64,000 nt of DNA, from positions 1 to 64,000 of the forward strand of contig ONLY01000013.1 in the NCBI GenBank assembly GCA_900318775.1. The letters are read 5' to 3'. The position numbers were made by a program, and so were the translations under genes. Each line of letters opens with the position of its first letter. The first letter of the stretch is position 1. Source of the stretch: an uncultured Prevotellaceae bacterium (GTDB lineage: Bacteria > Bacteroidota > Bacteroidia > Bacteroidales > Bacteroidaceae). The notes beneath the pieces are model-generated. The model searched no databases. It was given only the letters and a program-made list of their open reading frames with translations, and had not been told where the DNA came from. Below are positions 23,460 through 62,722 of the stretch, piece by piece.

Positions 23460-23504
23460 TAAGTGGCCGCAGGTCCCAGACATTTGACACTCATTTTTCT
23501 AATT

Positions 23505-24368
23505 ATGAATAAAGAATATATTGTACTCAGCCGTCAAGACGCAGTGGCGCGCAACAACTCACCCTATGTCAATCTCAAGATTGCCAACACGGAGGGCAAC
23601 GAAACCATCTGCGTGTTTGACGTACCCAAAACGAGCGGTCCCAAAGTGGGACAGCTCGTCACCTTCATCTCCATCCGTGATAACCAAGGAAAGAAGTCTG
23701 CCTCCAATATGGACATGATTGTAGGCTCCTTCCCCACCGAGCAACACCCTCTCTACAACCTCGTGCCACGCCCCATCAAGCGTGAGGAGTGGGACCGCAG
23801 CATCGAGCAACTCCTCACCCACTGCACCGATGCCACTCTCATCGGCTTCATCCGAGAGCAATCAGACGCCCTCTTCACGCCTTACAGCAAATATCCTGCT
23901 GCCACCAGCGTGCACCACGCCTTTCCTGGAGGACTGCTCAATCACACCTATCAGATGCTACACCTCCTTGAAGGAGTTTATCCCGTCTATCCTTATCCTG
24001 ACGATATCAAGATAGAACGCATCATCATCGGCATCCTCTTTCACGACTGGGGCAAGCTATGCGAGTACAATGTAGAAGGCGAACGCTTGGAAAATGGTTT
24101 CCTGCTGGGACACATCTACATGTCCGCCAACTACCTGAACACCCTTCTGCGCGACCTCGGCATCGAAAAACGCGAAATCAACTTCATCATCCACTGCGTG
24201 CTGGCGCATCACGGCCAACTCGAATACGGAAGTCCTGTCCTGCCTTGCATTCCAGAGGCACAACTCATCAATTACCTCGACAATATCTCGGCCAAGGCTG
24301 ACATCTTCAGCACGACAGGCAACCTCGAAAAGGCCTTTGCCCTCGGCACCAGCGTGGTAAAGGGATAA
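23505..24368 (+). CDS. HD-domain 3'-5' exoribonuclease, YhaM-like
   Basis: 287 residues from the ATG at 23505; a longer frame from 23463 lacks support and begins just after the previous stop. The N-terminal ~75 residues look like an OB-type nucleic-acid-binding module (TICVFDVPKTSGPKVGQLVTFISIRDNQGKK). The HD core follows: HHAFPGGLLNHTYQM (H147), GILFHDWGKLCEY (H180, D181), LLGHIYMS (H203), CVLAHHGQLEYGSP (H235/H236). OB plus HD is the YhaM/CBF1 layout, a 3'-5' RNase acting in RNA turnover. Cytoplasmic, no signal peptide. It lies 45 nt after the beta-helix gene and could share its transcript, though the functions are unrelated. Confidence 0.85.
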   Translation: MNKEYIVLSRQDAVARNNSPYVNLKIANTEGNETICVFDVPKTSGPKVGQLVTFISIRDNQGKKSASNMDMIVGSFPTEQHPLYNLVPRPIKREEWDRSIEQLLTHCTDATLIGFIREQSDALFTPYSKYPAATSVHHAFPGGLLNHTYQMLHLLEGVYPVYPYPDDIKIERIIIGILFHDWGKLCEYNVEGERLENGFLLGHIYMSANYLNTLLRDLGIEKREINFIIHCVLAHHGQLEYGSPVLPCIPEAQLINYLDNISAKADIFSTTGNLEKAFALGTSVVKG

Positions 24369-24486
24369 ACACAGGTAACACAGACTGAAGAAATTGAAAC
24401 AAACGAAGCAATTTTCAGCCGAACGCAGAAACCAGGTGAATCACAAATTCGCATAGGACAAAACTATCCTTTCTGCGCTACAATTG

Positions 24487-24551
24487 CGGTGTGAGTCAGA
24501 CCGACCATGCCGGTGTGAGTCACACCGTCACTATCGGTCTGACTCACACCG
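24487..24551. repeat. Array of three 17-bp near-palindromes, 24-bp period (copy B)
   Basis: Units at 24487-24503, 24511-24527 and 24535-24551, spaced by unrelated 7-bp spacers. Each fits CGGTSTGASTCASACCG, where S is G or C at positions 5, 9 and 13; no other base varies. The same unit and period recur at 44209-44273. Confidence 0.9.
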
Positions 24552-24602
24552 TTTCATAAACACAGAAATTATACCGACAAAATTATACTAACGATAAAAG
24601 AA

Positions 24603-24635
24603 GAAGCCTGCGTTACGATTTGTAGCGCAGGCTTC
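24603..24635 (+). terminator. Terminator-type hairpin
   Basis: GAAGCCTGCG (24603-24612) pairs with CGCAGGCTTC (24626-24635), followed by CATGTTTTT. Probably the terminator of the HD nuclease transcript, 234 nt past the stop. Confidence 0.7.
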
Positions 24636-25513: not shown

Positions 25514-27685
<2,172 letters not shown>

Positions 27686-40840: not shown

Positions 40841-43800
40841 ATGTCAGTCAAAGCATGGAAAGAGCAGGTGGTCATCCCCACCTACGAAGCGGGAAAGCCC
40901 GAGAAAAATCCTATTTTCCTTGAGAAACGTGTATATCAGGGCTCCAGCGGTGTCGTCTATCCCTATCCTGTTGTGGAGAGCATCAGCGACGAGAAGGTGG
41001 ATAAGGAGTGGCAAGCTATCTACCTGGAGAACGAGTATATCAAAGTGATGATTCTGCCCGAACTGGGGGGCAGAGTGCAGATGGCGTATGACAAAATCAA
41101 GCAGCGCCATTTTGTCTATTACAACCATGTCATCAAGCCTGCGCTGGTGGGCCTGGCAGGTCCGTGGATTTCAGGTGGTATCGAATTCAACTGGCCACAG
41201 CACCACCGCCCCAGCACCTACACGCCCGTGGATTCGAAGATTGTGGAGAACGAAGACGGTTCCGTGACCGTGTGGGTGAACGAGATGGAGCGCATGTTCC
41301 ACCAGAAAGGAGCGGCAGGCTTCACGCTTCGCCCAGGCTGCGCCTATCTGGAAATACAGGGCCGAGTGAGCAACCGCACTCCACTCCCACAGACCTTCCT
41401 CTGGTGGGCCAATCCTGCCGTAGAGGTGAATGATGATTACCAGAGCGTGTTCCCGCCAGATGTGAACGCGGTGTTCGACCACGGAAAACGCGCCGTGTCC
41501 TCCTTCCCTATCGCCACAGGCACATACTACAAAATGGACTACTCGGCAGGTGTGGACATCTCCAACTACCGGAACATCAAGGTGCCTACTTCCTACATGG
41601 CTGTGAACTCCAAATACAACTTCGAAGGTGGTTATGAGAACGACACCCACGGCGGCATGCTGCACGTGGCCTCTCACCACTTCTCGCCTGGCAAAAAACA
41701 ATGGACCTGGGGCAACGGAGACTTTGGCCGCGCTTGGGACCGCAACCTCACCGACAAGGCCACTCCCGAGGAAATGCAGCGTTGGGGCATTGACCGACAG
41801 GGCTTCCGCCCATACATCGAACTGATGGCAGGCGTCTATACAGAGAATCAGCCCGACTTCACATGGCTGATGCCCTATGAGGAAAAGCAGTTCACACAAT
41901 ACTTCATGCCCTATCGCGAGCTGGGTGTGGTGAAGCAAGCCTCAAAAGACGTGGTGATGAACATTGAGGAAGTAAACGGAGGCGTGCACTTCAAGGTGTT
42001 GGGCACCTCGAAACAGACAACAGAGGTGGTGCTGACAGACAAGAAAGGACATGAATTCTATCGCAAGACTGTGACACTCTCGCCCGAAAGCATCCTCGAC
42101 GAGACTGTCAACGTGGAAAACTACACATGGGGAGACCTCATCCTGCGCATTGGCAAACTCGTCTGGACACCCGAGCCTGACGACATCCGTCCCATTCCCG
42201 ATGCAGCAGAAGCAGCCCTTGCGCCCGAAGACACAAAGACGAACGACCAGCTGTACCTCACAGGACTGCATCTGGAGCAGTACCGTCATGCCACATGGTC
42301 TGCTCTCGACTACTACGAGGAGGCCCTGCGCCGCGACCCCAACGACGTGCGCTGCCTGAACCAGACTGGCCTGTGGTATCTGCGCCGCGGACGCTTCGAC
42401 AAGGCTGAGACCTACCTGCGCAAAGCCATGAAAATCTGGCAGAAGCGCAACCCCAATCCGTATGACGGCGAAGCCATCTTCAACCTTGCCCTCACCCTAA
42501 AATACCAGCATCGCATGCAAGAAGCCTACGAACTCTTCTGGAAATCCACCTGGAACAAGGCTTGGGCCGACGCAGGCTACTTCGAGGCTGCATGCATCAG
42601 CATCAGTCAAGAACGACTTGACGATGCCCTCGACGAGCTCAACCGCTGCCTCATCTTCAACCAATGCAACCACAAAGCACGCGCACTCAAAGCTACTGTG
42701 CTCCGCAAACTTGGCAGAAGCCAAGAAGCACTCGCCTTGTGCGAAGAGTCCCTCCGCCTCGATCACTTCAATTACGGCATCCTCTTCGAGAAGCACCTGC
42801 TCACCCGCGACGAGACCGTACTGAGAACAATGGAGGAGATGATGCACAGCAATATATACAACTACCACGAGCTTGCCCTCGACTACGCACAGGCAGGACT
42901 TTGGCAGGAAGCCATTAACGTGCTCGCTCTTCCTGCTGTGGCGGAACATCAGGAACAGGCAAATCCCCTTACATTATATTATATAGGAAGTTTCAAGGCA
43001 GGACAAGGCAAAATAGACCAAGCAAAAGCATGCTTCGCTGAAGCAGAAAAAGCAGACAGCTATTGCTGCTTCCCCAACCGTCTGGAAGACATCAACGTTC
43101 TGAAGGCAGCCATTGCAGCTCATCCACAAGGAGCCAAAGCCCCTTATTATCTCGGTTGCCTCTACTACGACAAACGACAGTATGACGAAGCAAAAACCTA
43201 TTGGGAACAATCTGAGCAGCTCGATCCCTTCTTCCCCACCGTGCACCGCAACCTCGCCCTGCTCTACTACAACAAGGAAGCCGACCCACAACGCGCCTTG
43301 CAAGAGATGGAGCTCGCCTTCAACCTCAACCAGAAGGATGCACGCGTCTTCATGGAACTGGATCAGCTCTACAAGAAGCTGCAGCGCCCTCATGCCGAAC
43401 GCCTCAAGAACTACGAGAAACGGCCCCGCCTTGTGGCACAGCGCGATGACCTCATCCTCGAACACGCCACCCTGCTCAACCTCCTGGGCCGATACAAGGA
43501 AGCGAAAACCATCATCGACCAGCATGTGTTCCACCCATGGGAAGGGGGCGAAGGCAAGGTGAGCGGACAGTATCAAATGAGCCGCGTCGAAATCGCCAAA
43601 CAGCTGCTGAAGGAAGACCCTGTTTCAACAGAGGCCAAACAGCTGCTCGAAGAGTGTCTCGTATTCCCACACTCGCTCGGCGAAGGGAAACTGCATGGAG
43701 CACAGGACAACGACTTCCTCTATTTTCTCGGACGCTACGAAGAAGGAACGGAAGGTCCGACCGAACCCGCTGCCGCCATGTACTACAACGACGCTAAACC

Positions 43801-44128
43801 AGACAAGATATTCTATGCAGGCCTCTGCTACCGCGCATTAGGACAAGAGGACAAGGCACGTGGACTCTTCCACAAACTCATCAACTATGGCCAGCAGCAC
43901 ATATTCGACCATGTCACCATGGACTATTTCGCCGTATCATTACCCGACCTCCTTGTGTGGGACGGCGACCTTGACCTCCAGAACCGCATCCACTGCCACT
44001 ATATGCTTGCCCTCGGCTACCTTGGCATGGGCAACCGCAACAAGGCAGAGCACCATCTCGCAGAAGTGAACAAACTAGAAATCAACCACTTGGGAGCCTA
44101 TTCACTCCGCACCTTTATGGAGATGTAA
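40841..44128 (+). CDS. DUF5107 protein with C-terminal TPR array
   Basis: 1095 residues, no signal peptide, so cytoplasmic. Residues about 1-440 match DUF5107, a galactose-mutarotase-like beta-sandwich fold: EWQAIYLENEYIKVMILPELGGRVQMAYDK, WISGGIEFNWPQHHRP, HVASHHFSPGKKQWTWG, FRPYIELMAGVYTENQPDFTWL. The motifs LPELGGRV and GGIEFNWP are typical of mutarotase-type sugar handling. From about 480 to the end the protein is built of TPR helices (ALDYYEEALRRDPNDVRCLNQTGLWYLRRGRFDKAETYLRKAMK and similar). Usually annotated only as DUF5107/TPR; the biochemical role is not established to my knowledge. Its position after a sugar porter suggests an intracellular glycoside or sugar enzyme. Confidence 0.85.
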   Translation: MSVKAWKEQVVIPTYEAGKPEKNPIFLEKRVYQGSSGVVYPYPVVESISDEKVDKEWQAIYLENEYIKVMILPELGGRVQMAYDKIKQRHFVYYNHVIKPALVGLAGPWISGGIEFNWPQHHRPSTYTPVDSKIVENEDGSVTVWVNEMERMFHQKGAAGFTLRPGCAYLEIQGRVSNRTPLPQTFLWWANPAVEVNDDYQSVFPPDVNAVFDHGKRAVSSFPIATGTYYKMDYSAGVDISNYRNIKVPTSYMAVNSKYNFEGGYENDTHGGMLHVASHHFSPGKKQWTWGNGDFGRAWDRNLTDKATPEEMQRWGIDRQGFRPYIELMAGVYTENQPDFTWLMPYEEKQFTQYFMPYRELGVVKQASKDVVMNIEEVNGGVHFKVLGTSKQTTEVVLTDKKGHEFYRKTVTLSPESILDETVNVENYTWGDLILRIGKLVWTPEPDDIRPIPDAAEAALAPEDTKTNDQLYLTGLHLEQYRHATWSALDYYEEALRRDPNDVRCLNQTGLWYLRRGRFDKAETYLRKAMKIWQKRNPNPYDGEAIFNLALTLKYQHRMQEAYELFWKSTWNKAWADAGYFEAACISISQERLDDALDELNRCLIFNQCNHKARALKATVLRKLGRSQEALALCEESLRLDHFNYGILFEKHLLTRDETVLRTMEEMMHSNIYNYHELALDYAQAGLWQEAINVLALPAVAEHQEQANPLTLYYIGSFKAGQGKIDQAKACFAEAEKADSYCCFPNRLEDINVLKAAIAAHPQGAKAPYYLGCLYYDKRQYDEAKTYWEQSEQLDPFFPTVHRNLALLYYNKEADPQRALQEMELAFNLNQKDARVFMELDQLYKKLQRPHAERLKNYEKRPRLVAQRDDLILEHATLLNLLGRYKEAKTIIDQHVFHPWEGGEGKVSGQYQMSRVEIAKQLLKEDPVSTEAKQLLEECLVFPHSLGEGKLHGAQDNDFLYFLGRYEEGTEGPTEPAAAMYYNDAKPDKIFYAGLCYRALGQEDKARGLFHKLINYGQQHIFDHVTMDYFAVSLPDLLVWDGDLDLQNRIHCHYMLALGYLGMGNRNKAEHHLAEVNKLEINHLGAYSLRTFMEM

Positions 44129-44208
44129 CGCAACATCTTTCTTTTCTTTCATACAACTTTATTCCCTCAAAGCAAGCCCCTTACATACCCCTTACAACAC
44201 CACAAAAA

Positions 44209-44273
44209 CGGTGTGACTCACACCGAGGGTATCGGTCTGAGTCACACCGGTAGTGGCGGTCTGAGTCACACCG
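44209..44273. repeat. Array of three 17-bp near-palindromes, 24-bp period (copy C)
   Basis: Units at 44209-44225, 44233-44249 and 44257-44273, with 7-bp unrelated spacers. They follow the same CGGTSTGASTCASACCG unit and the same 24-bp step as 24487-24551, 20 kb away. It lies 80 bp past the DUF5107 stop. Confidence 0.9.
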
Positions 44274-44459
44274 ATTCAGAGGCGCTGACTGTGCCCCTAT
44301 CAAGGGCATGAGGCATAGTGTGAATATAGTAGCAACATCTCTGTTGCCGACAAGCGGACTGAGATTATCTCATCTTTCCTTTACTTTTTCCTTCCTAAAC
44401 GCCACACAAACCCACTTTTTTACCCTTATTTACATTTTTTTAACAAAAAAAGGTAAACA

Positions 44460-44569: not shown

Positions 44570-47500
44570 ATGAATTACAAACAACTTTTACTGACACTGC
44601 TCGTGTTGTTGGGGCTCGGACAGCCCTTGGAAGTCCGTGCCGACGACTTCACGTACAACGCGAGTCATTACACCGCCATGATTTTAGGTGTGGACAAAGT
44701 GCAGTTCACCCTGCCTACGGGTAATCTCTACCGCACCAACGACGGTGTGAAGGAGGGACATGTCTATATCTATGTAGATGGAGGTGGCGAGGAAGCACTC
44801 TTCGACTGGTCGTGCAAGAACCACAACCAGGTGGATGATGGGTGTAAAATCAAGGCCTACAAGGACGGTACGTTCGCGTTGGTCGGAAAAATCCAAGGGG
44901 GCAAAAAGACGTTCACCAATGCTAACGGTGAAATCGAATACAAACTGAACCCCAACGATGATGACGAAGACCACTACACCACAACGGTGGAATGGACGGT
45001 GCCCTACTCCCTGCGTGGCAGGCACCTCACCCTGAAGGTGTGGGCACACGTGGACTGGGGTGCAGGAGGCGACTGGCATGTACCTGACGCTACGGGCAGA
45101 AGGGAATTGCTCAGTTGGGACTGTCCTGCCGCACCAGCTGTGAACATCACGTTGACCGACCCCATGTTGTCGTACGACCGTGCACACATCAATCAGATCA
45201 TGATGACTTACAATGTCACGGCAAAGAGCATCAAGTGGATGAAGCTGCACTATACCGATGTCGTGACCAAGCAGTCATACACTAAAGACATGCCCACCTC
45301 GGACATGGTCGGTTTTGCCTATCTCCCTGCTGACCATACATGGGAGAACATCTACTTGGAGGCCAAGGTGGTGAACATGGAAGACACGGAAGTGCCCACC
45401 CCTATCGAGTCAGCCAAGTTCTCATACGACATGTTGCACCATCCCAAGAATTTCAAGGTTGAACTGACCCAGCAGGGAACAGCCAAGATGTCATGGTCGG
45501 TGGATAATCCCGAGCAAGCGGACGTCAACGATGGCGACTTCTTCGAGATTCAACGCAACCTGATGGGAGCAACCGAAGCGTCCAATCCCTATTGGACCAC
45601 CATTGCGATGGTCGATTATGACCAAGAGGACAAGACACACTACACTTATGAGGACGGGACGCTGATGGATTCCTACAGGGGAAATCCTGTCGCCTACCGC
45701 ATCCGCCGCTCCGCCACTGCCATGTGGTCGTGGGGACCTGGCTCAGGCTACCAGACCTCCCTCTCTCCATCTGTTCTCATGCTTCCACAACTTGAGAATG
45801 TCACTGTGAAACGTTTGGGCACATGGACGGACGAGTCACATCTCGTACAGTTCAATTTCGACTTTGGGACTTCCCTTGACAGCAAGGGACGCTCGCTGAT
45901 TCACAATCAGGCTGAGTGGGATGCATTCAAGACTCTATACACCGATAAGGAGGAGGCCACCAAGAATTCAGTCTTCGTGCTGAGGGACGAGAACAGTTGG
46001 GAGGTGTTCAGAAAAATTGTAGCGTCTGGTTACACCAAGGTGAATGCCGTCATGGCTACAGACATGACGCTCGACAATCTCCTGTATTGGGTTGACGACT
46101 TCGCTGGAGAGTTTGATGGCGGTGGGCATACGCTGACCCTCAAGTTCGACAGTTACCGCAAAGAAGGTGCAGCCCCCTTCCGTAAGGTCAATGGTGGCTA
46201 TTTTCACAATCTGACTGTGGCTGGTTCCATCACGTCAACAGCCAAATTCATGGGAGGTCTGATAGGCGTGGTGAACTATGACGCCAGCGCTGTGACGATT
46301 GAGAACTGTAACGTCATAGCCTCCCTTACCAGCCAGGTGAATGGTGATGCCAGCAGCGGTGGCTTCATCGGCATGATGGAGTTGGGCACCACTGTCAACT
46401 TCAAGAATTGTTCGTTCCACGGCAAGCTGCAAGGCAACAGGTCGAACAACAATGCAGGTTTTGTGGGTGTTGCGGTGTCAAGAACGACCATCAACTTTGC
46501 GGGCTGTATGTTCGACCCCGAATCCCTGCCCAGCGACATGAGCAACTGCCGCACTTTCGTGCGTGCAGACCAAACTGCCACGGTGACCTTCGATGACCAA
46601 TGTTACTACACTCGTGCCTACTGCTCGTACAACGATGGTGGCAAGGCTCACTTCGTCATCAACAACGTTGCCGACTGGGAGGTGTTCGTCGATATGGTGA
46701 AGGAGGCTGACGGCAACGAGGTGAATGCGGTCTTGGGAGCTGACCTGAGCATCAGCAAGGCGGTCAATTGCGAACAGGGCTATTACGGTGCCTTTAACGG
46801 TAACGGCCACACGCTGAATGTGAACCTCAACAGCGAGAACTCTCCGTATATGGCTCCGTTCGTTCGCGTCAAGGGTGGCTCTACGTTCAAGAACCTGCAC
46901 GTGACGGGAACGGTGCGTGGTGGCATCCACAGTGCTGGACTCATCGGCACGGGTGACAGGGAGGGCGCTGGCATCACGATTGAGAATGTGTGGGTATCAA
47001 CAGCCATCACTTGCACCAGCACTCACGCCGGTGGTATTGTGGGACATTGCGGTGACAGTCCCTCCAATCCCTACACCATCAACAACTGCCTGTTCGACGG
47101 CAAGGCCTCAAGTACCGTCAGCGGTCTGTATTTCGGTGCTATCGTCGGCTGGGGAAAGGGGGCAGGCAATATAATCACCAACTGTCTGGAAAACGGAACC
47201 TACGAGGGGTTTGCTCACTGTGGCATGAACTATGCGGATGCAAGTACATGCTATGGCAACAATGGTGCCAACACCAACAACTACACCTACCACAACTGGG
47301 GCGAAGTGGGTAACAACTATAAGAATGCCAATAGCATCGAAGGTCTCGTGTCTAAATTGGGCAGTGGATGGAACTATGATGTGGCTTCTGGAAACAATGC
47401 TGTCGTCCCAAAGACCACGACGATTGAGCCACTGCTCTCCGAAAAGGTACTGCAAGGAAAGAGTGCCGCAGACATGAGCGTTGCCGACCTTCTTGCCGTG

Positions 47501-50500
47501 TATGGAAGGGATTGGCTGGAATATGGCAACAGTGTGGCACCCGCCATTCGTGAAGTGGGCGACTACAACGGCATCGTCATGTGGGATCCACGTGCCCAAC
47601 TGAAACTGCGTGTCAACACGAGGGGCGAGACGAACAGCTACACGAACATCATCGACCTTTCGGACAACAGGGATGCCATCGACAAACATCAGTTCACCTA
47701 CAATCTGACCAGCAAGTGTGTGGAATATGACTTCGACCTCATGTTGCTCCGCAACAACTCGCAGATGAGGATTTTCGGCACGTCGGTCAACGGGCTCTAT
47801 CCCGACACGCTCGTGGTGAAGGTGCAGAAGAGTGACCAAGGCGATTTGGCGAACTACAAGTTCATGAACCTCGCTAAAATCGACTCGCTCCGCACCACCA
47901 CCAAACAGAGCAGCGTGGTGCTGAACTGGGGCACATCGGGTGGCGAGAGCGACTTCTTCCGCGTCCTGCGCCGTCCACACACGAGCGATGCCAATGCTGA
48001 GTGGACTGACACCATCGCCAGGAGCATCCAGCAGAATTTCTTCGAGGACAAGAAGGTGTATGTACAGCAAGCCTACGACTACATGGTGGAAAGTGTCACC
48101 CAGTGTGAAGGTGTACATATCGTACGGTCTGAAGTCTGGGCGGGCGAATGCGAACCGACTGCCATGATTAGCGGTTATGTGCGTATGGCTGACGGCACCG
48201 CTATGGCTGGTGTGGAGGTGACCATTGAACCGAAAGACCCTGTCTCCAAGTCGCTCAATGGCGCGCAATACAAGGTGACCACTGACAAGGCTGGCTACTT
48301 CGAGAAGAAAGGTCTGGTCTATCGTGGCACGGGTGAGTTCGATGTCCGCGTGGAGGTGAACGGAGGCATGAAGGCCTTCACGGGCGGCGGTACCGTCACG
48401 TTCACGGGCGAAACCAACATGCTCACCAACTACAACTTCTACCAAGACCAGTATGTGGTTTACTCGGGTAACGTCTATTACAGCGACACCAGCATCCCCG
48501 TGCCGGGCGTATCGTTCAAACTGGACGGCAAGCCCATGTACGATGCCAGCCAGAACCTGATTGAGACCGACAACCAAGGTGCCTTCAGCCTGAGCATCCC
48601 ACACGGTCCACACAGCGTGCAGGCCGTGAAGGAGGGACACGTGCTGGCTGACAACGGGTTCCTGTTGAACCCCGACGACGTGGAGGACAAGACCCAATAC
48701 AACTTCGAGAAGAATGTTGCCGAGGTTTACATTTGGGACTCCACCACCGTGGTGCTGCGCGGTCGCGTAGTGGGTGGTGAAATCGAGGGCAGCAAGCCAC
48801 TCGGCTCTTCACTGTCCACCAACAACCTGGGTGACTCGCTGAAGATTGTGATGCAACTGGAAGGTGACAACACCTCATGGCTCATCCGCAAACCCAAGGA
48901 CGAGACCGTGAAGTCCGCCAGTTACATTGTGCCTTTCGGTGCGAAGAACGCCCAAGGCTTCCAAAAGGACACCACCCAGGTGAATGTGACACGCCACTCC
49001 ATCACCATCCGTCCCGACAGCAGGACTGGCGAATACGAACTGAAAGTGCATCCTGCCAAGTACAAGGTGGTGGAGATATCAGGTCGAGGCTACGCTACCC
49101 TGTTCCAGCAGGGCAAGGTGGGTGAGACCGTTGACCTCGCGTTCAAAGTGCAGGGCGACACCTGCGAATACAGCCGCGTTTACCATGCTATGCCAACCGT
49201 CGAGGTGACCCAGTTTAACAGTGGCAACGAGAAATACTACGGTGTGAAGAAGATGAAGGTTGCTGACAACGTCGGCAATGAGGCCACCGTGAACCTCTAC
49301 TACTACGAGAAACTCTCCGAGACTGACAGCATCGGCCACTACTCGTTCGGCTATCCCGTCTTCATGGCAGGTTCGCCCTACGGCTGGATACTGCAAGCCT
49401 GCGAAAAGTACTACTACAACAATAATGTGAACCGTGAGCCAGACATCGTGAAGTTGAACGGTGGCGAGGTGACCATCAAGAACTACCTGATTGGCACGAA
49501 CGACGGTGACCTGTCGAAGACCATCGAACTGGACGAGGAGGGCGGTGCTTCCTACATCTTCACCCCTCAGAACACTACCTTCACGATGGAGGGAGACATG
49601 GCACTGAAGGGTGTCAGCATCACGCTGGAATACGACGGCAGTTTCTACGACATCAAGCCGTTCAACGGTGAGATGCTGAGAGGCTATGTCATGGCGTCCA
49701 AACCGAAAGCCGACGGACGCAAGTCCATCGTTGCAGGCACGCCTAAGCTGTTCGACATCTTGCGAGATCCTCCTGGCAGCGGCAGCTCATCCTACATGGA
49801 AGAGGGCTCGAAGCTGAGTTATGGCTATTCCGCCGACCTGAATGCTTCACTGGGTGTGAACCTGAGCATCTCCAAGGGTACGGGCACCAACGTGTATGCT
49901 GGTTTCATCATGGCTCCACCAGGAGGAGACGGAACCACGCATGGTGACTTCATCACCGCCCAGCAGACCACAGGCATGAACCTCGACATCGTGACCGCCT
50001 TCGGCATGTCGTGGGTCTATAACTACAACGTTGACATCAGCGAACGCATCCAGACCAAGACTGGCGCGAAGTGGATTGCCGGCAAGGCTGACCTCTTCAT
50101 GGGCACCACCGACAACATCATCGTGCAGGACGCTATGGCTGTGCGTGTCATCCCTGAGAGCATGTACCAACTGGTGAAGCAGCACGAAGGTGGCACGTTT
50201 GAGGTGCAACAGCAAAACAGCACCACCGTCACCATGGTGAAAGTACCAGTCGGCACGACGAAGGTGCTTGCACAAGGTACCGACGACCAAGGCAAGCCCA
50301 TCTATCTGGTACGCGACGAAGTGATACAGATTTCACCCACCGTGTCATCTACCTTCATTCACTCACAGAACTACATTGAGACCGAGTTGTTGCCAGAACT
50401 CATCAAGTTCCGCAACTCGAAACTGATGTCCAAGTCCACTCCTGAAGCCACTGCCCAGGCACTGGCGGACAAACGGGGATATGCCGTTTACGTCAGCAAC

Positions 50501-53500
50501 GTGGACGAGGACGATGACCTCTTTGGCTTCAGCTACACCATCTACTGGCCAGCGAAGAGCAAGGCAACCTATGTGGACGGCAAGGGACAGAAGTACGAGA
50601 CTGGTGACAGTATTGGTGCCCTGAACCAAGAAGTGCGCACATGGATTGGTTTCCTTTCCAAGAACGAGGAAGAAAAACTCACGCTGCTTCCTTCCAACCT
50701 GGTGAAGCGTTACGACTTCGATGGCGGCATGTCCTCCATCCAGTACAGCGAAAGCTTCTCCACCAGCGAGAATCTGTCACGCTACCTGCGCTACCCCGGA
50801 CTCACAGGTTTGGGCAATGTGGCAGGAACCACCACGAACATGATACGCACCTTTGTGGAAGGTTGGGATAAGTTGATGATTAAGAAAGGTGGACAAATCG
50901 GCATCGATGAGTATAATGAAGTGCGTGACCCTAACGCGCAGGAGCGCATCGAAATCAAGACCATCGGAACTACCGTTTCCCTGAAGTTCACCCCTATCGT
51001 GACAGGTAGTTTCACCGATAAATTCAACAGTTCCGAACAGCATTCCAAGAAGATTGGCTTCACCTTGTCGACAGCCGCCAAGTCAAGGCTGACGGTGGAA
51101 GTCTACCGCACCCAGACGGAGCAGACACTCGACTCGACTGTCAACATCTTCAACAACTACACGCTGGATATGCTCGACAAAGTGCGTAGCGGACGCTTGA
51201 CACCGAATGCGTTGAGTTATGCCGACTGGGGCAGAAAGGTTTACTCCAGCTTCATCTTCCGCACCATTGGCGGTGTCACTTGCCAGCCATACGAGGGTGA
51301 GCGTGTGACGAAGTGGTTCCAGCCCGGAACAGTGCTTGATGTAGCGACCGTCCCAGCGGACAAGCCACGCATCTGGATTGAAGAGCCCGTACAGAGCAAC
51401 GTGCCATTTGACCAGCCTGCACGTTATGTCCTGCACTTTGCCAACGAGACCGATTATCCTGAAAGCGCGACACTGGCGTTCACCTACTTCCTGCCTTCGG
51501 GCTGCAATCCGAAGGGAGCCAAGATTTGCGTGGACGGTGCACCTCTGACTGGCACAGGCACGAGCATCATGCTCGCACCTCCGGTCAATCCCGTGACGGG
51601 CAAGGTGAATGTGTTCACGAAGGAAATCACCGTCTATCCAGGCGATGACTTTGACTACGAGAATCTCGGCATCAGCCTGATGGACCCAGAAGACCCCCAG
51701 CGTATCTTCACGACAAACTTCGCCGCCCACTTCGTTCCATCGGCTGGCGCCATCAAGGTGACCACCCCAAGTGACCACTGGGTGGTGAACACGGAGAATC
51801 CTTACGACGGCAACCGCAAGGCGTGGTACATGCCTGTGCGCATCGAGGGCTTCAACGTGAATGGCCGTGGATTCGACCACATTGAACTGCAATATAAACT
51901 GACCACTCAGGGCGAGAAGGACTGGGTGAGCGTCTGCTCATACTATGCAAACGATTCGCTGCGCCAGAAGGCAAGCGGTGTGACCGACACCATCCCGACG
52001 AACGGCATCATCGTGGCTCCATTCTATGGTGAGGTGGATCCCGTGGAGCAGTACTATGACCTGCGGGCAGTGGTGTATGCACGTCACGCGGGCGGTTTCC
52101 TGACCAACGCTTCGCCCATCCTGACGGGTATCAAGGACACACGTCTGCCACGTCCGTTCGGCACGCCTGAACCTGCCAACGGTGTGCTGGGTATCGGCGA
52201 GGACATCAAGATTGCCTTCTCTGAGCCGATTGCCAGCAACTACCTGAGCAAAATCAACAACTTTGAAGTGTTGGGCACGCCTATCAACACCAACATCTCC
52301 ACGACGACATCCCTCACCTTCAACGGTGAGAACACCCTCGGTTTCACGCAAGGAAGCCGCAACATGAAGGGCAAGAGCTTCACCGTCGATGTGATGGTGA
52401 ACCCATCGTCCGACAGAGGTGCGATGACCGTGTTTGCGCATGGTGGTGGCGAGAAGGGACTGAGGCTGGGTCTCACAGAAGACCGCCACTTGATTGCCCG
52501 AGTGAACGGCACCGAAGTGACATCAGACCAGGTGGTTCAGTTCAACAATGCGTTGCATCAGATTGCCTACACGCTCGAACAGGGCTCGAAGGATATGACG
52601 CTCACCCTCTACGATGGCAGCATCCTCATCGGCACCAAGACCATCAATGGAGTGTACGAGCAGAACACACCACTCTATATCGGTGTGGATAACGACCATG
52701 AGAAGATGTTCAAAGGTGACATGCTGGAGTTCCGACTCTGGAACCGCCCGATGGACGGCGACGACCTGAAGGACTACAGCGGAAAGACACTGACCGGCTA
52801 TGAGAGCGGTCTGCTCGACTACTACAAACTGAACGAGGGTGAAGGCAGCTTCAGTTATGACAAGGCGCCAGGCAGCTTAGACCTCAATCTAGCTAACCAC
52901 ACCTGGAAACGACCTGTCGGCATCTCGATGAAACTGGACGGTCAGAACGGCATACAACTGAAGACGAACCAGCAGTTCAACCGCTCGAAGAACCATGACT
53001 ACACGCTGATGTTCTGGTTCCGCACCAACACCCCGAACGGTACACTGTTCTCGAATGGTGAGGCACAACGCGGACAGGAGAATCAGCTCAACATCGGTGT
53101 GAAGGATTCTGAACTGTATGTGCGCTCTGCTGGCTACGTAAACATGACAGATGAGTATGTGAGTGACACCCAATGGCATAGTTTCGCTCTGACCGTGTCA
53201 CGCAACCGCAATGTGGCCAACATCTATCTCGACAAGAAACTGATAGAGACGTTTGCTGCCGACAGCCTGAGCGGTTTCGCTGGCGACATCATCTCACTGG
53301 GTTCCACCTACCACAAGGATGGCGCGACGGACGCTTTGACGGGTAACATCGACGAAGTGGGCATGTTCGAAAGTGTGCTGCCGACAAACCTGCTCTACGA
53401 GTACACGACCCACACACCTATCAGCACGACGAAGCCGCTGATGTTCTACCTCGACTTTGGTCGCTCGGAGCACATGGACAACAACCAGATGCGCCTGCAG

Positions 53501-55543
53501 CCTACGGGTATCAGCATCAAACGTTATGTGGACTCACAAGGAAACCTGCTGGAGCGCCGCGACACGCTGCTGGTTGTTGATGAGGCTCTTGCTGACCGCA
53601 ACTACTATGCGCCGATGCACAGCAATGCGCAGTTGGAAAACCTTAAGTATAAATATGTGGCGAAGGACAACGAACTGCTCATTGAGTTGGAGGAGCCTGA
53701 ATTCGTGGTCGAGAAGACGAACGTCTATGTGACCGTGAAGGAAATTCCTGACATGCAGGGCAACCTGATGGCAAGTCCATTGACCATGAACCTCTACGTC
53801 TATCGCAACCCGTTGCGCTGGGAAACCAAGAAGATTGACACTGCCGTCGATTATGGCTGTGGCACAGAATTCGTGGTGAACATCCAGAACAAGAGCGGAC
53901 AGACGCAGAACTATGAGATTAACGACCTGCCTATCTGGATCACGGCTTCACAAACCAGCGGCACCATCAATGCGCTGGACGAGCAGACCATCACGTTCAC
54001 GGTTTCACCTTATATCAATATAGGTACGTACACCGAACAAATCTCGTTGGTGGGCGGCAACGGCATGGCCGAACCACTGCCTATCACGCTGAAGGTTCGT
54101 GGCGATGAACCCACATGGACTGTTAGTGAGGAAGTGAAGAAGAAGAACCAAAGCATGATGATGGTGGCACGTGTGAAGATTGATGGTGTGGTGACCCACT
54201 CGGAAAAGGATTTGCTCGGTGTGTTCGACGTTCAGAAGCAGACACTGGGTGTGGCACATATTGAGGTGGACAAGACCGCCAACGCCAACGAGGCACTTGC
54301 CTACCTGACCATCTACGGCTATACGAACGACGACGGCACGGCGCCTGTCCTGTACTTCAAGTTCTTCAATGCTTCAACAGGCAAGATGTACAACCTGGTG
54401 CCTGCTGACGATAAAGTCTATACCTTCCAGACTGGTGGCTTCATCGGAACCACTTCTGATCCAGTCATCTTGGAAAATGACTTCAGCAGTGTACAGCGAA
54501 TGCACCTGAACGAGGGATGGAACTGGGTATCGTTCAATGTCGAGCCTGAGGATGAAGAAACGACAGTCGGAGAATTCCTGAACAATGCCGCGAAATGGGA
54601 GGCTGGCGATATCATCACATCGGTCAATGGTTCTAAAGTACAGAAGTGGATTTGCCGCAAGGAGAAGAAAGACAAGGAGTCTGCGGAATACATCAACAAG
54701 TGGGACGATGAGGATAAGCCCATCGAACTGAACCCGGCTCTGATGTACCGAATCTTCTCTGTCAACGACAAGACTGCCTACTTCGAAGGATTCCAGGTAT
54801 CTAGGAACATCACGCTCCGAAAGGGCTGGAACCGTATTGCCTACCTCTCGACCATCAACCTGCCGATTGCTCAAGCACTGAGCGACTACACCGAGATGGC
54901 AAGCGAAGGCGATGTCATCAAGTCGCAAGAAGCATTTGCGGTGGCCACAAAGACTGCCAACAATGTGCTCGTATGGAAGGGCTCGCTCCAGTATCTGGAA
55001 ACCGGCAAGGGTTACATGCTGAAGCGCCAGGCAAGCAACGAGGTGTCGTTCAGCTATCCGCTCTACTGGGCTGACAACCGCTACACCGGCAACCTCAATG
55101 TGGCTTCCGCATCTCGCCGCACGAGTGCGGTCAACACATCGACAACGATGAACATCGTGGCCAACGTAGGAGGTGTGGAGACAGAGCCAGAAGATGTCCT
55201 AGTTGTTTACCGCGGTACCGACAAACTGGCAGAGGCTGTAGCAGATGAGGAGCAGAACTACTACCTGAACATCGGATGTGACACGCAGTCATCCGAGCGA
55301 CTCACCTTCACGCTGGAGCGCGGTGGCGAGGTAGTGGCTACGACCCAGAGTCTGATTTCCTACGAGGCAGACCGTCTTTTGGGTACACCAGATATGCCTA
55401 CAGAAATCAACTTCACCCCTGTTGACTCAACGATGTATGCCGATGGCAAGTGGTACACGCTGACGGGCATTCAGTTGCCAAGTGCGCCCAAGCAGCCTGG
55501 TTGCTACATCTACAACGGTAAAGTAAAATCTATTAAGAATTAA
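44570..55543 (+). CDS. Giant mosaic secreted protein, 3657 aa
   Basis: One unbroken 11-kb frame. Signal peptide (residues 1-24). Modules in rough order: N-terminal beta-sandwich (25-210), Fn3-like (290-410), two GLUG-like beta-helix blocks (about 480-680 and 690-930: EFDGGGHTLTLKF, AFNGNGHTLNVNL, each followed by IENC/IENVW rungs), Fn3-like (about 1110-1190), two carboxypeptidase-regulatory-like folds (ISGYVRMADGTAMAGVEVTI and VYSGNVYYSDTSIPVPGVSFKL), a large unassigned middle, two LamG-like jellyrolls (about 2580-2760 and 2783-2940), a BACON-like domain, GWNWVSF and KGWNRIAY modules (about 3310-3500), and a T9SS-type tail (ADGKWYTLTGIQLPSAPKQPGCYIY). Likely a surface adhesin or glycan-binding scaffold exported by type IX secretion. 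No catalytic motif recognised. A small lipoprotein gene follows at 53 bp. Confidence 0.85.
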   Translation: MNYKQLLLTLLVLLGLGQPLEVRADDFTYNASHYTAMILGVDKVQFTLPTGNLYRTNDGVKEGHVYIYVDGGGEEALFDWSCKNHNQVDDGCKIKAYKDGTFALVGKIQGGKKTFTNANGEIEYKLNPNDDDEDHYTTTVEWTVPYSLRGRHLTLKVWAHVDWGAGGDWHVPDATGRRELLSWDCPAAPAVNITLTDPMLSYDRAHINQIMMTYNVTAKSIKWMKLHYTDVVTKQSYTKDMPTSDMVGFAYLPADHTWENIYLEAKVVNMEDTEVPTPIESAKFSYDMLHHPKNFKVELTQQGTAKMSWSVDNPEQADVNDGDFFEIQRNLMGATEASNPYWTTIAMVDYDQEDKTHYTYEDGTLMDSYRGNPVAYRIRRSATAMWSWGPGSGYQTSLSPSVLMLPQLENVTVKRLGTWTDESHLVQFNFDFGTSLDSKGRSLIHNQAEWDAFKTLYTDKEEATKNSVFVLRDENSWEVFRKIVASGYTKVNAVMATDMTLDNLLYWVDDFAGEFDGGGHTLTLKFDSYRKEGAAPFRKVNGGYFHNLTVAGSITSTAKFMGGLIGVVNYDASAVTIENCNVIASLTSQVNGDASSGGFIGMMELGTTVNFKNCSFHGKLQGNRSNNNAGFVGVAVSRTTINFAGCMFDPESLPSDMSNCRTFVRADQTATVTFDDQCYYTRAYCSYNDGGKAHFVINNVADWEVFVDMVKEADGNEVNAVLGADLSISKAVNCEQGYYGAFNGNGHTLNVNLNSENSPYMAPFVRVKGGSTFKNLHVTGTVRGGIHSAGLIGTGDREGAGITIENVWVSTAITCTSTHAGGIVGHCGDSPSNPYTINNCLFDGKASSTVSGLYFGAIVGWGKGAGNIITNCLENGTYEGFAHCGMNYADASTCYGNNGANTNNYTYHNWGEVGNNYKNANSIEGLVSKLGSGWNYDVASGNNAVVPKTTTIEPLLSEKVLQGKSAADMSVADLLAVYGRDWLEYGNSVAPAIREVGDYNGIVMWDPRAQLKLRVNTRGETNSYTNIIDLSDNRDAIDKHQFTYNLTSKCVEYDFDLMLLRNNSQMRIFGTSVNGLYPDTLVVKVQKSDQGDLANYKFMNLAKIDSLRTTTKQSSVVLNWGTSGGESDFFRVLRRPHTSDANAEWTDTIARSIQQNFFEDKKVYVQQAYDYMVESVTQCEGVHIVRSEVWAGECEPTAMISGYVRMADGTAMAGVEVTIEPKDPVSKSLNGAQYKVTTDKAGYFEKKGLVYRGTGEFDVRVEVNGGMKAFTGGGTVTFTGETNMLTNYNFYQDQYVVYSGNVYYSDTSIPVPGVSFKLDGKPMYDASQNLIETDNQGAFSLSIPHGPHSVQAVKEGHVLADNGFLLNPDDVEDKTQYNFEKNVAEVYIWDSTTVVLRGRVVGGEIEGSKPLGSSLSTNNLGDSLKIVMQLEGDNTSWLIRKPKDETVKSASYIVPFGAKNAQGFQKDTTQVNVTRHSITIRPDSRTGEYELKVHPAKYKVVEISGRGYATLFQQGKVGETVDLAFKVQGDTCEYSRVYHAMPTVEVTQFNSGNEKYYGVKKMKVADNVGNEATVNLYYYEKLSETDSIGHYSFGYPVFMAGSPYGWILQACEKYYYNNNVNREPDIVKLNGGEVTIKNYLIGTNDGDLSKTIELDEEGGASYIFTPQNTTFTMEGDMALKGVSITLEYDGSFYDIKPFNGEMLRGYVMASKPKADGRKSIVAGTPKLFDILRDPPGSGSSSYMEEGSKLSYGYSADLNASLGVNLSISKGTGTNVYAGFIMAPPGGDGTTHGDFITAQQTTGMNLDIVTAFGMSWVYNYNVDISERIQTKTGAKWIAGKADLFMGTTDNIIVQDAMAVRVIPESMYQLVKQHEGGTFEVQQQNSTTVTMVKVPVGTTKVLAQGTDDQGKPIYLVRDEVIQISPTVSSTFIHSQNYIETELLPELIKFRNSKLMSKSTPEATAQALADKRGYAVYVSNVDEDDDLFGFSYTIYWPAKSKATYVDGKGQKYETGDSIGALNQEVRTWIGFLSKNEEEKLTLLPSNLVKRYDFDGGMSSIQYSESFSTSENLSRYLRYPGLTGLGNVAGTTTNMIRTFVEGWDKLMIKKGGQIGIDEYNEVRDPNAQERIEIKTIGTTVSLKFTPIVTGSFTDKFNSSEQHSKKIGFTLSTAAKSRLTVEVYRTQTEQTLDSTVNIFNNYTLDMLDKVRSGRLTPNALSYADWGRKVYSSFIFRTIGGVTCQPYEGERVTKWFQPGTVLDVATVPADKPRIWIEEPVQSNVPFDQPARYVLHFANETDYPESATLAFTYFLPSGCNPKGAKICVDGAPLTGTGTSIMLAPPVNPVTGKVNVFTKEITVYPGDDFDYENLGISLMDPEDPQRIFTTNFAAHFVPSAGAIKVTTPSDHWVVNTENPYDGNRKAWYMPVRIEGFNVNGRGFDHIELQYKLTTQGEKDWVSVCSYYANDSLRQKASGVTDTIPTNGIIVAPFYGEVDPVEQYYDLRAVVYARHAGGFLTNASPILTGIKDTRLPRPFGTPEPANGVLGIGEDIKIAFSEPIASNYLSKINNFEVLGTPINTNISTTTSLTFNGENTLGFTQGSRNMKGKSFTVDVMVNPSSDRGAMTVFAHGGGEKGLRLGLTEDRHLIARVNGTEVTSDQVVQFNNALHQIAYTLEQGSKDMTLTLYDGSILIGTKTINGVYEQNTPLYIGVDNDHEKMFKGDMLEFRLWNRPMDGDDLKDYSGKTLTGYESGLLDYYKLNEGEGSFSYDKAPGSLDLNLANHTWKRPVGISMKLDGQNGIQLKTNQQFNRSKNHDYTLMFWFRTNTPNGTLFSNGEAQRGQENQLNIGVKDSELYVRSAGYVNMTDEYVSDTQWHSFALTVSRNRNVANIYLDKKLIETFAADSLSGFAGDIISLGSTYHKDGATDALTGNIDEVGMFESVLPTNLLYEYTTHTPISTTKPLMFYLDFGRSEHMDNNQMRLQPTGISIKRYVDSQGNLLERRDTLLVVDEALADRNYYAPMHSNAQLENLKYKYVAKDNELLIELEEPEFVVEKTNVYVTVKEIPDMQGNLMASPLTMNLYVYRNPLRWETKKIDTAVDYGCGTEFVVNIQNKSGQTQNYEINDLPIWITASQTSGTINALDEQTITFTVSPYINIGTYTEQISLVGGNGMAEPLPITLKVRGDEPTWTVSEEVKKKNQSMMMVARVKIDGVVTHSEKDLLGVFDVQKQTLGVAHIEVDKTANANEALAYLTIYGYTNDDGTAPVLYFKFFNASTGKMYNLVPADDKVYTFQTGGFIGTTSDPVILENDFSSVQRMHLNEGWNWVSFNVEPEDEETTVGEFLNNAAKWEAGDIITSVNGSKVQKWICRKEKKDKESAEYINKWDDEDKPIELNPALMYRIFSVNDKTAYFEGFQVSRNITLRKGWNRIAYLSTINLPIAQALSDYTEMASEGDVIKSQEAFAVATKTANNVLVWKGSLQYLETGKGYMLKRQASNEVSFSYPLYWADNRYTGNLNVASASRRTSAVNTSTTMNIVANVGGVETEPEDVLVVYRGTDKLAEAVADEEQNYYLNIGCDTQSSERLTFTLERGGEVVATTQSLISYEADRLLGTPDMPTEINFTPVDSTMYADGKWYTLTGIQLPSAPKQPGCYIYNGKVKSIKN

Positions 55544-62618: not shown

Positions 62619-62683
62619 TCGACGTCGTCGACATCGGTTTGCCGACATCAACGATGTCGGTTGGTCGATGTCGACGACGTCGG
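62619..62683. repeat. Array of three 19-bp near-palindromes, 23-bp period (copy D)
   Basis: Units at 62619-62637, 62642-62660 and 62665-62683 with 4-bp spacers. They fit YCGANNTCNNCGANNTCGG, a palindromic frame whose variation is confined to three dinucleotides plus the first base. Same layout as the arrays at 24.5 and 44.2 kb, but a different sequence. Confidence 0.85.
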
Positions 62684-62722
62684 CAAAGAGGTTGTGGAAG
62701 CGCCCATAAAGGGGATGTGTCA

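Follow-up and report, generated by a model that had tools for sequence, protein, structure and literature searches.

A family of three-unit palindrome arrays in a Bacteroidaceae genus, possibly docking sites for a dimeric DNA-binding protein

Why would a Prevotellaceae bacterium carry three short palindromes in exact register behind a gene? The stretch of 64,000 nucleotides that we analyzed (the window) has such an array at 24487-24551. A preliminary description reported three 17-bp units, at steps of 24 bp and with unrelated 7-bp spacers, that differ only by G/C swaps at positions 5, 9, and 13 of the unit; it proposed that selection maintains a site for a protein that reads one face of the helix, or a code-like family of sites. 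The layout is exactly as described: the three units match CGGTSTGASTCASACCG with 0 mismatches, at 24-bp steps and with 7-bp spacers. If up to 3 mismatches are allowed, then CGGTSTGASTCASACCG has seven matches in the window, six of them exact (100 shuffles gave a mean of 0.39 and a maximum of 3). The other three exact units form a second array of this type, which we call T1, at 44209-44273. The window also contains an array of another class, T2. We name the T1 half-sites a (GGTGTGA) and b (GGTCTGA). The features are:

23463-24368, + strand: ORF for an HD-domain protein, with its stop 118 bp before array 1
24467-24486, no strand: left arm of array 1, degenerate (arm alignment); the family consensus, read outward, is G-HTTTTGWGGYGCAGGAAG
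24487-24551, no strand: T1 array 1, a 65-bp core of three 17-bp palindromic units and two 7-bp spacers (pattern match)
24487-24503, no strand: array 1 unit 1, half-sites a-b, center G, the rare GGG form
24511-24527, no strand: array 1 unit 2, half-sites a-a, center G
24535-24551, no strand: array 1 unit 3, half-sites b-a, center C, the rare CCC form
24552-24571, no strand: right arm of array 1, degenerate (arm alignment)
24603-24635, + strand: intrinsic-terminator-like hairpin, adjoining array 1 and distinct from it (terminator scan)
25514-27664, - strand: ORF for a GH10 xylanase and esterase, convergent to the HD ORF
40841-44128, + strand: ORF for a DUF5107/TPR protein, upstream of array 2
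44189-44208, no strand: left arm of array 2 (arm alignment)
44209-44273, no strand: T1 array 2, code aa ba ba, 80 bp past the stop of the DUF5107/TPR gene
44274-44293, no strand: right arm of array 2 (arm alignment)
62620-62682, no strand: T2 array with a 23-bp step and three units of CGAYRTCG-W-CGAYRTCG, unit 2 with 1 mismatch
62683-62702, no strand: right arm of the T2 array, which resembles the T1 arm (GCAAAGAGGTTGTGGAAG)

A very large ORF (44570-55543, 3657 aa) also lies in the window; its first 977 residues have no Pfam match.

A family of sites should have further members in the same genome (2.62 Mb in 41 contigs; like all of the genomes that we compared, a draft MAG), and it does: the 15-bp core GGTSTGASTCASACC has 107 exact copies, versus none for the reversed pattern as a control. 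When at most 3 mismatches are allowed, the pattern of three units matches 37 times (32 with 0 mismatches, 4 with 1, 1 with 2, and 0 with 3), so decayed copies are few. These matches correspond to 36 arrays because one array, with four units, is counted twice; the other 35 have exactly three units. The 36 arrays contain 104 of the 107 exact cores; the other three are accounted for by L110, an array of just two units, and by L124, a unit on its own. Where successive units at the loci examined are under 200 bp apart, the distance is 24 bp in 71 of 72 cases, and the exception (48 bp) spans a mutated unit. A or T occurs at positions 5, 9, or 13 in 3 of 330 cells (110 units, at loci that were chosen with the G/C pattern). 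Allowing any nucleotide at the variable positions adds no pairs of units, as the 74 two-unit matches are accounted for by the 36 arrays and the two-unit array. When we scanned 696 kb of this genome for any three palindromes at steps of 21-27 bp, we found 37 T1 groups at 24 bp, four T2 groups at 23 bp, and no other group in that sequence, much of which was picked around T1 arrays. A Markov control (852 kb, similar thresholds, steps of 20-28 bp) gave no groups. Whether the arrays cluster along the chromosome depends on the statistic (P = 0.016 from the length of empty contigs, versus P = 0.47 by chi-square); contigs C21 and C29 carry 18 of 38 arrays, which we noticed after the fact.

We found the T1 core in 15 of the 61 genomes searched; all 15 are among the 37 that belong to the same genus, and none of the 24 others has it. 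Positive genomes have 2 to 275 units. The other 22 of the 37 genus genomes have none, so T1 is not a genus-wide necessity. In a family-level sample, a looser two-unit pattern matched 10 of 301 genomes, all among its 21 members of the genus. Among the genomes sampled, then, a single Bacteroidaceae genus had T1. Named records with T1, among the matches listed from a contig scan that used G/C at the variable positions, are RUG13218, RUG14560, RGIG3223 (goat reticulum), and Tb.RUG.104; we take RUG to stand for rumen. A phage or plasmid origin was rejected: there was no exact T1 match in the viral contigs of IMG/VR, and no match among 72,556 plasmids (PLSDB) with the first array as the query.

The preliminary description was right about the three-unit core but the element is longer than it saw. 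The whole element is about 105 bp, with the 65-bp core flanked by inverted arms (G-HTTTTGWGGYGCAGGAAG in 68 aligned outward flanks) whose conservation fades after about 20 bp. The arm consensus varies by species: it is GGTGCAGGAAG in the window's own genome, GGTAGTGGAAG in RGIG3223 and Tb.RUG.104, and GGTGACGAG in RUG14560, and the species difference holds even at a single gene neighborhood (L022 versus L136). Nor are the spacers unrelated, as had been claimed; they draw on a loose common vocabulary (AGGGTGG/CCACCCT, GCATGGT, and CATAGGT). Of 45 genus genomes, 14 carry class T2 (CGAYRTCG-N-CGAYRTCG at a 23-bp step), with 37 units in the window's own genome and as few as 1-3 units in four of the 14. 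In genome G002, T1 and T2 have arms in common around unrelated units, and the right arm of the T2 array in our window is T1-like as well.

Are these arrays maintained in place? We compared 27 orthologous pairs of three-unit arrays with matched flanks between the window's genome and RUG13218, from a close species, with the arms aligned without gaps. The fixed core changed at 1 of 1134 positions, positions 5 and 13 at 2 of 162, and the center at 10 of 81. The spacers changed at 32 of 378 positions with no change in length, and the arms at 176 of 1080. About 10% of flank positions changed (528 of 5307, counted 20-120 nt outward). Given the contrast between the fixed core and the flanks, the T1 cores are under strong constraint in place, which bears out the preliminary suggestion of selection.

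The positions of the arrays also tend to be kept between these two genomes. Of 29 array loci in RUG13218 among the matches listed, 28 have a counterpart array in the window's genome, and the 29th lies inside a 3.2-kb segment that is wholly absent from it. Ten array loci of the window's genome had no RUG13218 partner among the matches listed. Site comparison in this direction covers one locus, the window's array at 24487, which we looked for in the closely related genome G010 and found. When the region around this array was compared to nine genomes, it was unbroken only in G010, array included. There was no T1 unit within 1.5 kb of the HD gene in the distant genomes G034, G015, G002, and G019 (L208, L210, L212, and L213); G015 carries no T1 anywhere. 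Judging from these comparisons, array positions are kept only partly over evolutionary distance.

These results bear on whether T1 is a non-autonomous mobile repeat (a MITE or REPIN-like), which we consider unlikely. The arms would then be the ends that a transposase recognizes, and the conservation would reflect what the enzyme can copy. The 36 copies must presumably have spread somehow, and this origin would fit the patchy copy number across the genus, the common arms around unrelated cores, the species-specific arm consensus, and the presence of terminal inverted repeats, even if they are worn. Also, Y1 transposases do occur: a clear one in array-rich G019 (E = 7.8e-19) and a weak one, below the cut-off, in G036. 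However, nearly all of the listed RUG13218 loci are at sites that are also occupied in the window's genome, and the one exception is an indel. The arms are the worn part of the element, which is the opposite of what is expected for a MITE. Six T1-rich genomes (the window's own, G010, G012, G013, G034, and G168; drafts that are 83-98% complete) have no Y1 transposase (PF01797, E ≤ 0.001). And a search of 114 elements for a target-site duplication gave nothing convincing, although old copies could have lost it: with all offsets tried, the best mean identity was 0.35 for 3-mers and 0.34 for 4-mers, versus an overall mean of 0.24. We therefore disfavor a RAYT-driven REP, given the six genomes without Y1 (G019 does have one), and an ordinary MITE, given the lack of convincing duplications and the sites common to relatives. 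We also considered an autonomous parent element. In G012 and G036, a two-gene stretch (L251 1654-2978, L253 1660-2985, and also L252) lies between T2 units, where arm sequence is also duplicated, but the piece of about 1.3 kb between the T2 units (as read in L251 and L253) looks, by eye, like a HipB/HipA-like toxin-antitoxin pair and not a transposase.

The G/C variation has, for the most part, a simpler basis than was first thought. CGC and GCG, as the letters at positions 5, 9, and 13, are reverse complements, so they represent the same asymmetric unit read from either strand. The same holds for GGC and GCC, which are the symmetric unit, and for CGG and CCG, the rarer one. Across 116 arrays, G or C is at the center of 183 asymmetric units and is the matching letter in 168 of them, while symmetric a-a units have C at the center 73 times and G 66 times. 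Between orthologues, the center switched between C and G in 9 of 81 units (and from G to T once), as compared to 95 of 7477 G/C sites in the flanks (1.27%; P ~ 1e-6), so centers flip at about nine times the flank rate. Template switching that inverts the palindrome accounts for these flips. In yeast, template switching at short inverted repeats inverts their spacer, according to the available part of PMC8604942, and the flips of the T1 centers are alike. By the same partial account, the yeast process would also homogenize the arms of the repeat, whereas the a and b half-sites of T1 persist. Exchange among neighboring units may account for part of the center flips, and L040/L139 looks like such a case. 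The flips of the T1 centers would offer a natural record of template switching at bacterial palindromes.

With one unit in two orientations plus inversion of the center, the mirror-symmetric G/C variation largely needs no code. A and T at the variable positions must still be removed by selection. The claim that variation is confined to G/C at these three positions largely holds in the window's genome but the rule is not universal: in the related genome G030, A or T stands at position 5 or at position 13 in 6 of the 10 units that we read, and the variable positions of class T2 are transitions.

The code-like part of the preliminary description survives in another form, as a rule for half-sites. 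Of the 31 arrays that we scored in the window's genome, 27 contain two b half-sites, neither more nor fewer, among their six, as compared to 11.2 for independent half-sites, and b never faces b across a spacer (0 of 62; 10.2 expected). This scoring omits one four-unit array, two two-unit arrays, three single matches, and two A/T arrays. In the wider set, which includes orthologues, 92 of 114 arrays have two b half-sites (40.6 expected) and b-b occurs across 0 of 228 spacers (30.6 expected). All 116 arrays, orthologous copies included, have at least one b half-site; with no array free of b, the T1 near-palindromes stay imperfect. A common type has b at L2 and R3 (30 arrays), while b at L1 and L2 was seen once.

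Could the rule arise from folding? The core and arms might form an extruded structure, a cruciform or a three-way junction, that is recognized by its shape, with the left half of unit 1 paired to the right half of unit 3 and two hairpins inside. Complementarity is retained between classes whose unit sequences are completely different, and flips of the template-switch type suggest that the palindromes fold occasionally. Pairing is also broken at set places, both in T1 (no b-b across spacers, and a b in every array) and in T2, where 0 of 20 junctions in 10 arrays have perfect complementarity across the spacer. The break is not universal, however: 47 of 232 T1 junctions are a-a and hence fully complementary, and only one of the two junctions of the T2 array departs much from shuffles (15 mismatches versus 10.3, as compared to 12 versus 10.4 for the other). 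Moreover, it is the T1 sequence itself that is frozen and not merely its pairing; the spacer length is invariant; and some T2 spacers, being palindromic themselves (GTTAAC and GTCGAC), leave no loop. Three-way-junction pairing is not sufficient as the sole cause of the code since folding alone cannot separate b at L2 and R3 from b at L1 and L2. Overall, a structural element seems improbable to us. The T1 half-site code, mostly two b of six and never b-b across a spacer, is the part of the pattern that orientation and center inversion leave over.

Gene context, which we obtained from mechanical ORFs, places most arrays behind genes. Among 95 arrays with two usable neighbors, 33 lie between convergent ORFs, 44 between tandem ORFs, and 18 between divergent ORFs. 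The tandem arrays are a median of 62 bp from the upstream stop, versus 218 bp to the downstream start. A coding repeat (24 bp is eight codons) was rejected because the arrays are intergenic; 3 of the 37 loci in the window's genome are inside a mechanical ORF of at least 150 aa. In the 44 tandem contexts, unit orientation is not biased by the direction of transcription (33 b-a(G) units and 31 a-b(C) units), a sign that the element acts as DNA and not as RNA.

This lack of bias argues against a bidirectional intrinsic terminator or a structure in the 3' UTR, which we think is very doubtful. In its favor, the arrays sit at gene ends, and on both strands the core ends in ACCG followed by the T-rich arm. 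A terminator scan made one call at unit 1 of array 2, on the minus strand (0.5 expected from shuffles), but it did not call array 1, where it called the distinct adjoining hairpin instead. A terminator would not need a frozen sequence, either. No Rfam family reached its gathering score in window positions 23000-46000 or on the arrays searched (below that score, the first array has microRNA matches of the chance type), so an RNA element was set aside. Elsewhere, L116 293-352 matches the SAM-II riboswitch above the gathering score, and L107 2229-2401 matches the Bacteroides sRNA BTnc060, well under it.

We tentatively favor another explanation: that the arrays are double-stranded, strand-symmetric sites at which a sequence-specific dimeric DNA-binding protein docks cooperatively, with a role like that of BIMEs or matS. 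Our starting points are the copies, the rigid spacing, the in-place constraint, the strand symmetry, the half-site rule, and the other classes with the same layout; from these we infer protein binding, a dimer with neighbor contacts, and a cellular role. Each 17-bp palindrome would take one dimer, the fixed 24-bp step would let three dimers touch, and the b half-sites would set a preferred asymmetry. Spacers that drift in sequence but not in length suit helical-phase contacts better than hairpin loops, and together with the frozen units and the strand symmetry, they suggest dimers that touch on double-stranded DNA. The reading of one helix face that was first proposed is not supported: with 10.5 bp per turn, 24 bp is about 2.3 turns and successive units are rotated. 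With sites mostly behind genes, the role would most likely be chromosome organization or insulation between transcription units, and the G/C flips would be a by-product of template switching in palindromes and not a signal. The scarcity of decayed copies, the placement nearer to the upstream stop, and the lack of exact matches in IMG/VR and, for the first array, in plasmids also speak for docking. The 18 arrays between ORFs called divergent count against docking, as do the 22 genus genomes that lack T1 and the array positions that are only partly kept, and we found no candidate for the cognate protein of T1. As T1 and T2 have common arms and unrelated units, docking would need two proteins or a reader of structure. 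Still, a RAYT-type REP, an ordinary MITE, or an RNA element fits less well. T1 offers many natural sites that are sharply delimited and strongly constrained, with no reader known, in a family that is common among gut bacteria. Because of the rigid step and the half-site code, the binding hypothesis can be tested directly.

The statement that no described element matches T1 agrees with our literature searches, in which we found no description of T1 and none of its three unit strings; for intergenic palindromes in Bacteroidetes, they gave only REP and BrickBuilt leads, both of which differ from T1. In the available part of PMC2817692, REP/BIME elements are short intergenic palindromes that are multi-copy, species-specific, and found in regularly spaced groups, and T1 is alike; being intergenic, multi-copy, and palindromic, T1 resembles REPs and REPINs in general. 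A role in chromosome organization and termination has been proposed for them in the same part of that source. As compared to the REP/BIME elements described there, T1 has a fixed three-unit layout with an exact step, just one lone unit in the window's genome, and no RAYT-type Y1 transposase in that genome or in five other T1-rich genomes. The likeness to matS and MatP of E. coli, as far as the available part of PMC3330122 describes them, is to the role that we propose: multi-copy chromosomal sites for one chromosome-organizing protein. In that account, matS is a 13-bp target with 23 copies in one 800-kb domain, whereas T1 is a 65-bp triple site. The BrickBuilt MITE of Porphyromonas gingivalis, in the available part of PMC4596501, is similar in being from Bacteroidales, intergenic, and built of 23-nt tandem repeats between inverted ends. 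It has 1 to 22.8 repeats without spacers, whereas T1 has fixed spacers; by eye, its repeat consensus is not a palindrome of the T1 kind, and its ends are most like ISPg1/ISPg9. Judged against the consensus given there, T1 does not consist of direct 23-nt repeats without spacers between IS-type ends.

Arrays of similar layout occur with other units. G032 combines CGRWGTC-SSS-GACWYCG, at a 23-bp step, with an A/T-rich array of TTCATAA-S-TTATGAA, whose step is 21 bp, and G015 has TGAACATATGTTCA and TGAGTTAACTCA arrays with a 22-bp step. Palindrome groups at 22 bp were found in 3 of 10 other genera sampled, at up to about 140 kb each (G063, G065, and G068; those in G065 are weak), and the sample from G069 had no palindrome groups. 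The looser scan, whose thresholds differ somewhat from those of the 696-kb scan, also gave A/T-rich groups at L159 (G015, period 21), L022 (21), and L046 (27), which we take to be chance or unrelated. There could be one plan of three near-palindromes at 21-24-bp steps, with a core of about 60-65 bp and pairing broken at set places, that has been re-encoded with wholly different units across lineages (twice in this genome) and carries the two-of-six code in T1. If so, this would be a fast-evolving system of sites and proteins in Bacteroidaceae, but we regard this as rather doubtful.

In the other genera, the 22-bp-step groups are at L289 8054 and L292 4821 (G068) and at L265 15651, L284 3814, and L287 13464 (G065), in genomes whose main contig is over 3 Mb, so that the groups could perhaps be placed relative to ori and ter. 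In G063, the 22-bp-step arrays are at L263 8985-9110, L263 15600-15690, and L282 ~9719. They mix the half-sites AACTAAC, AACTTCC, and GCGACATAC, and the array at L263 8985-9110 lies between an A-run and a T-run.
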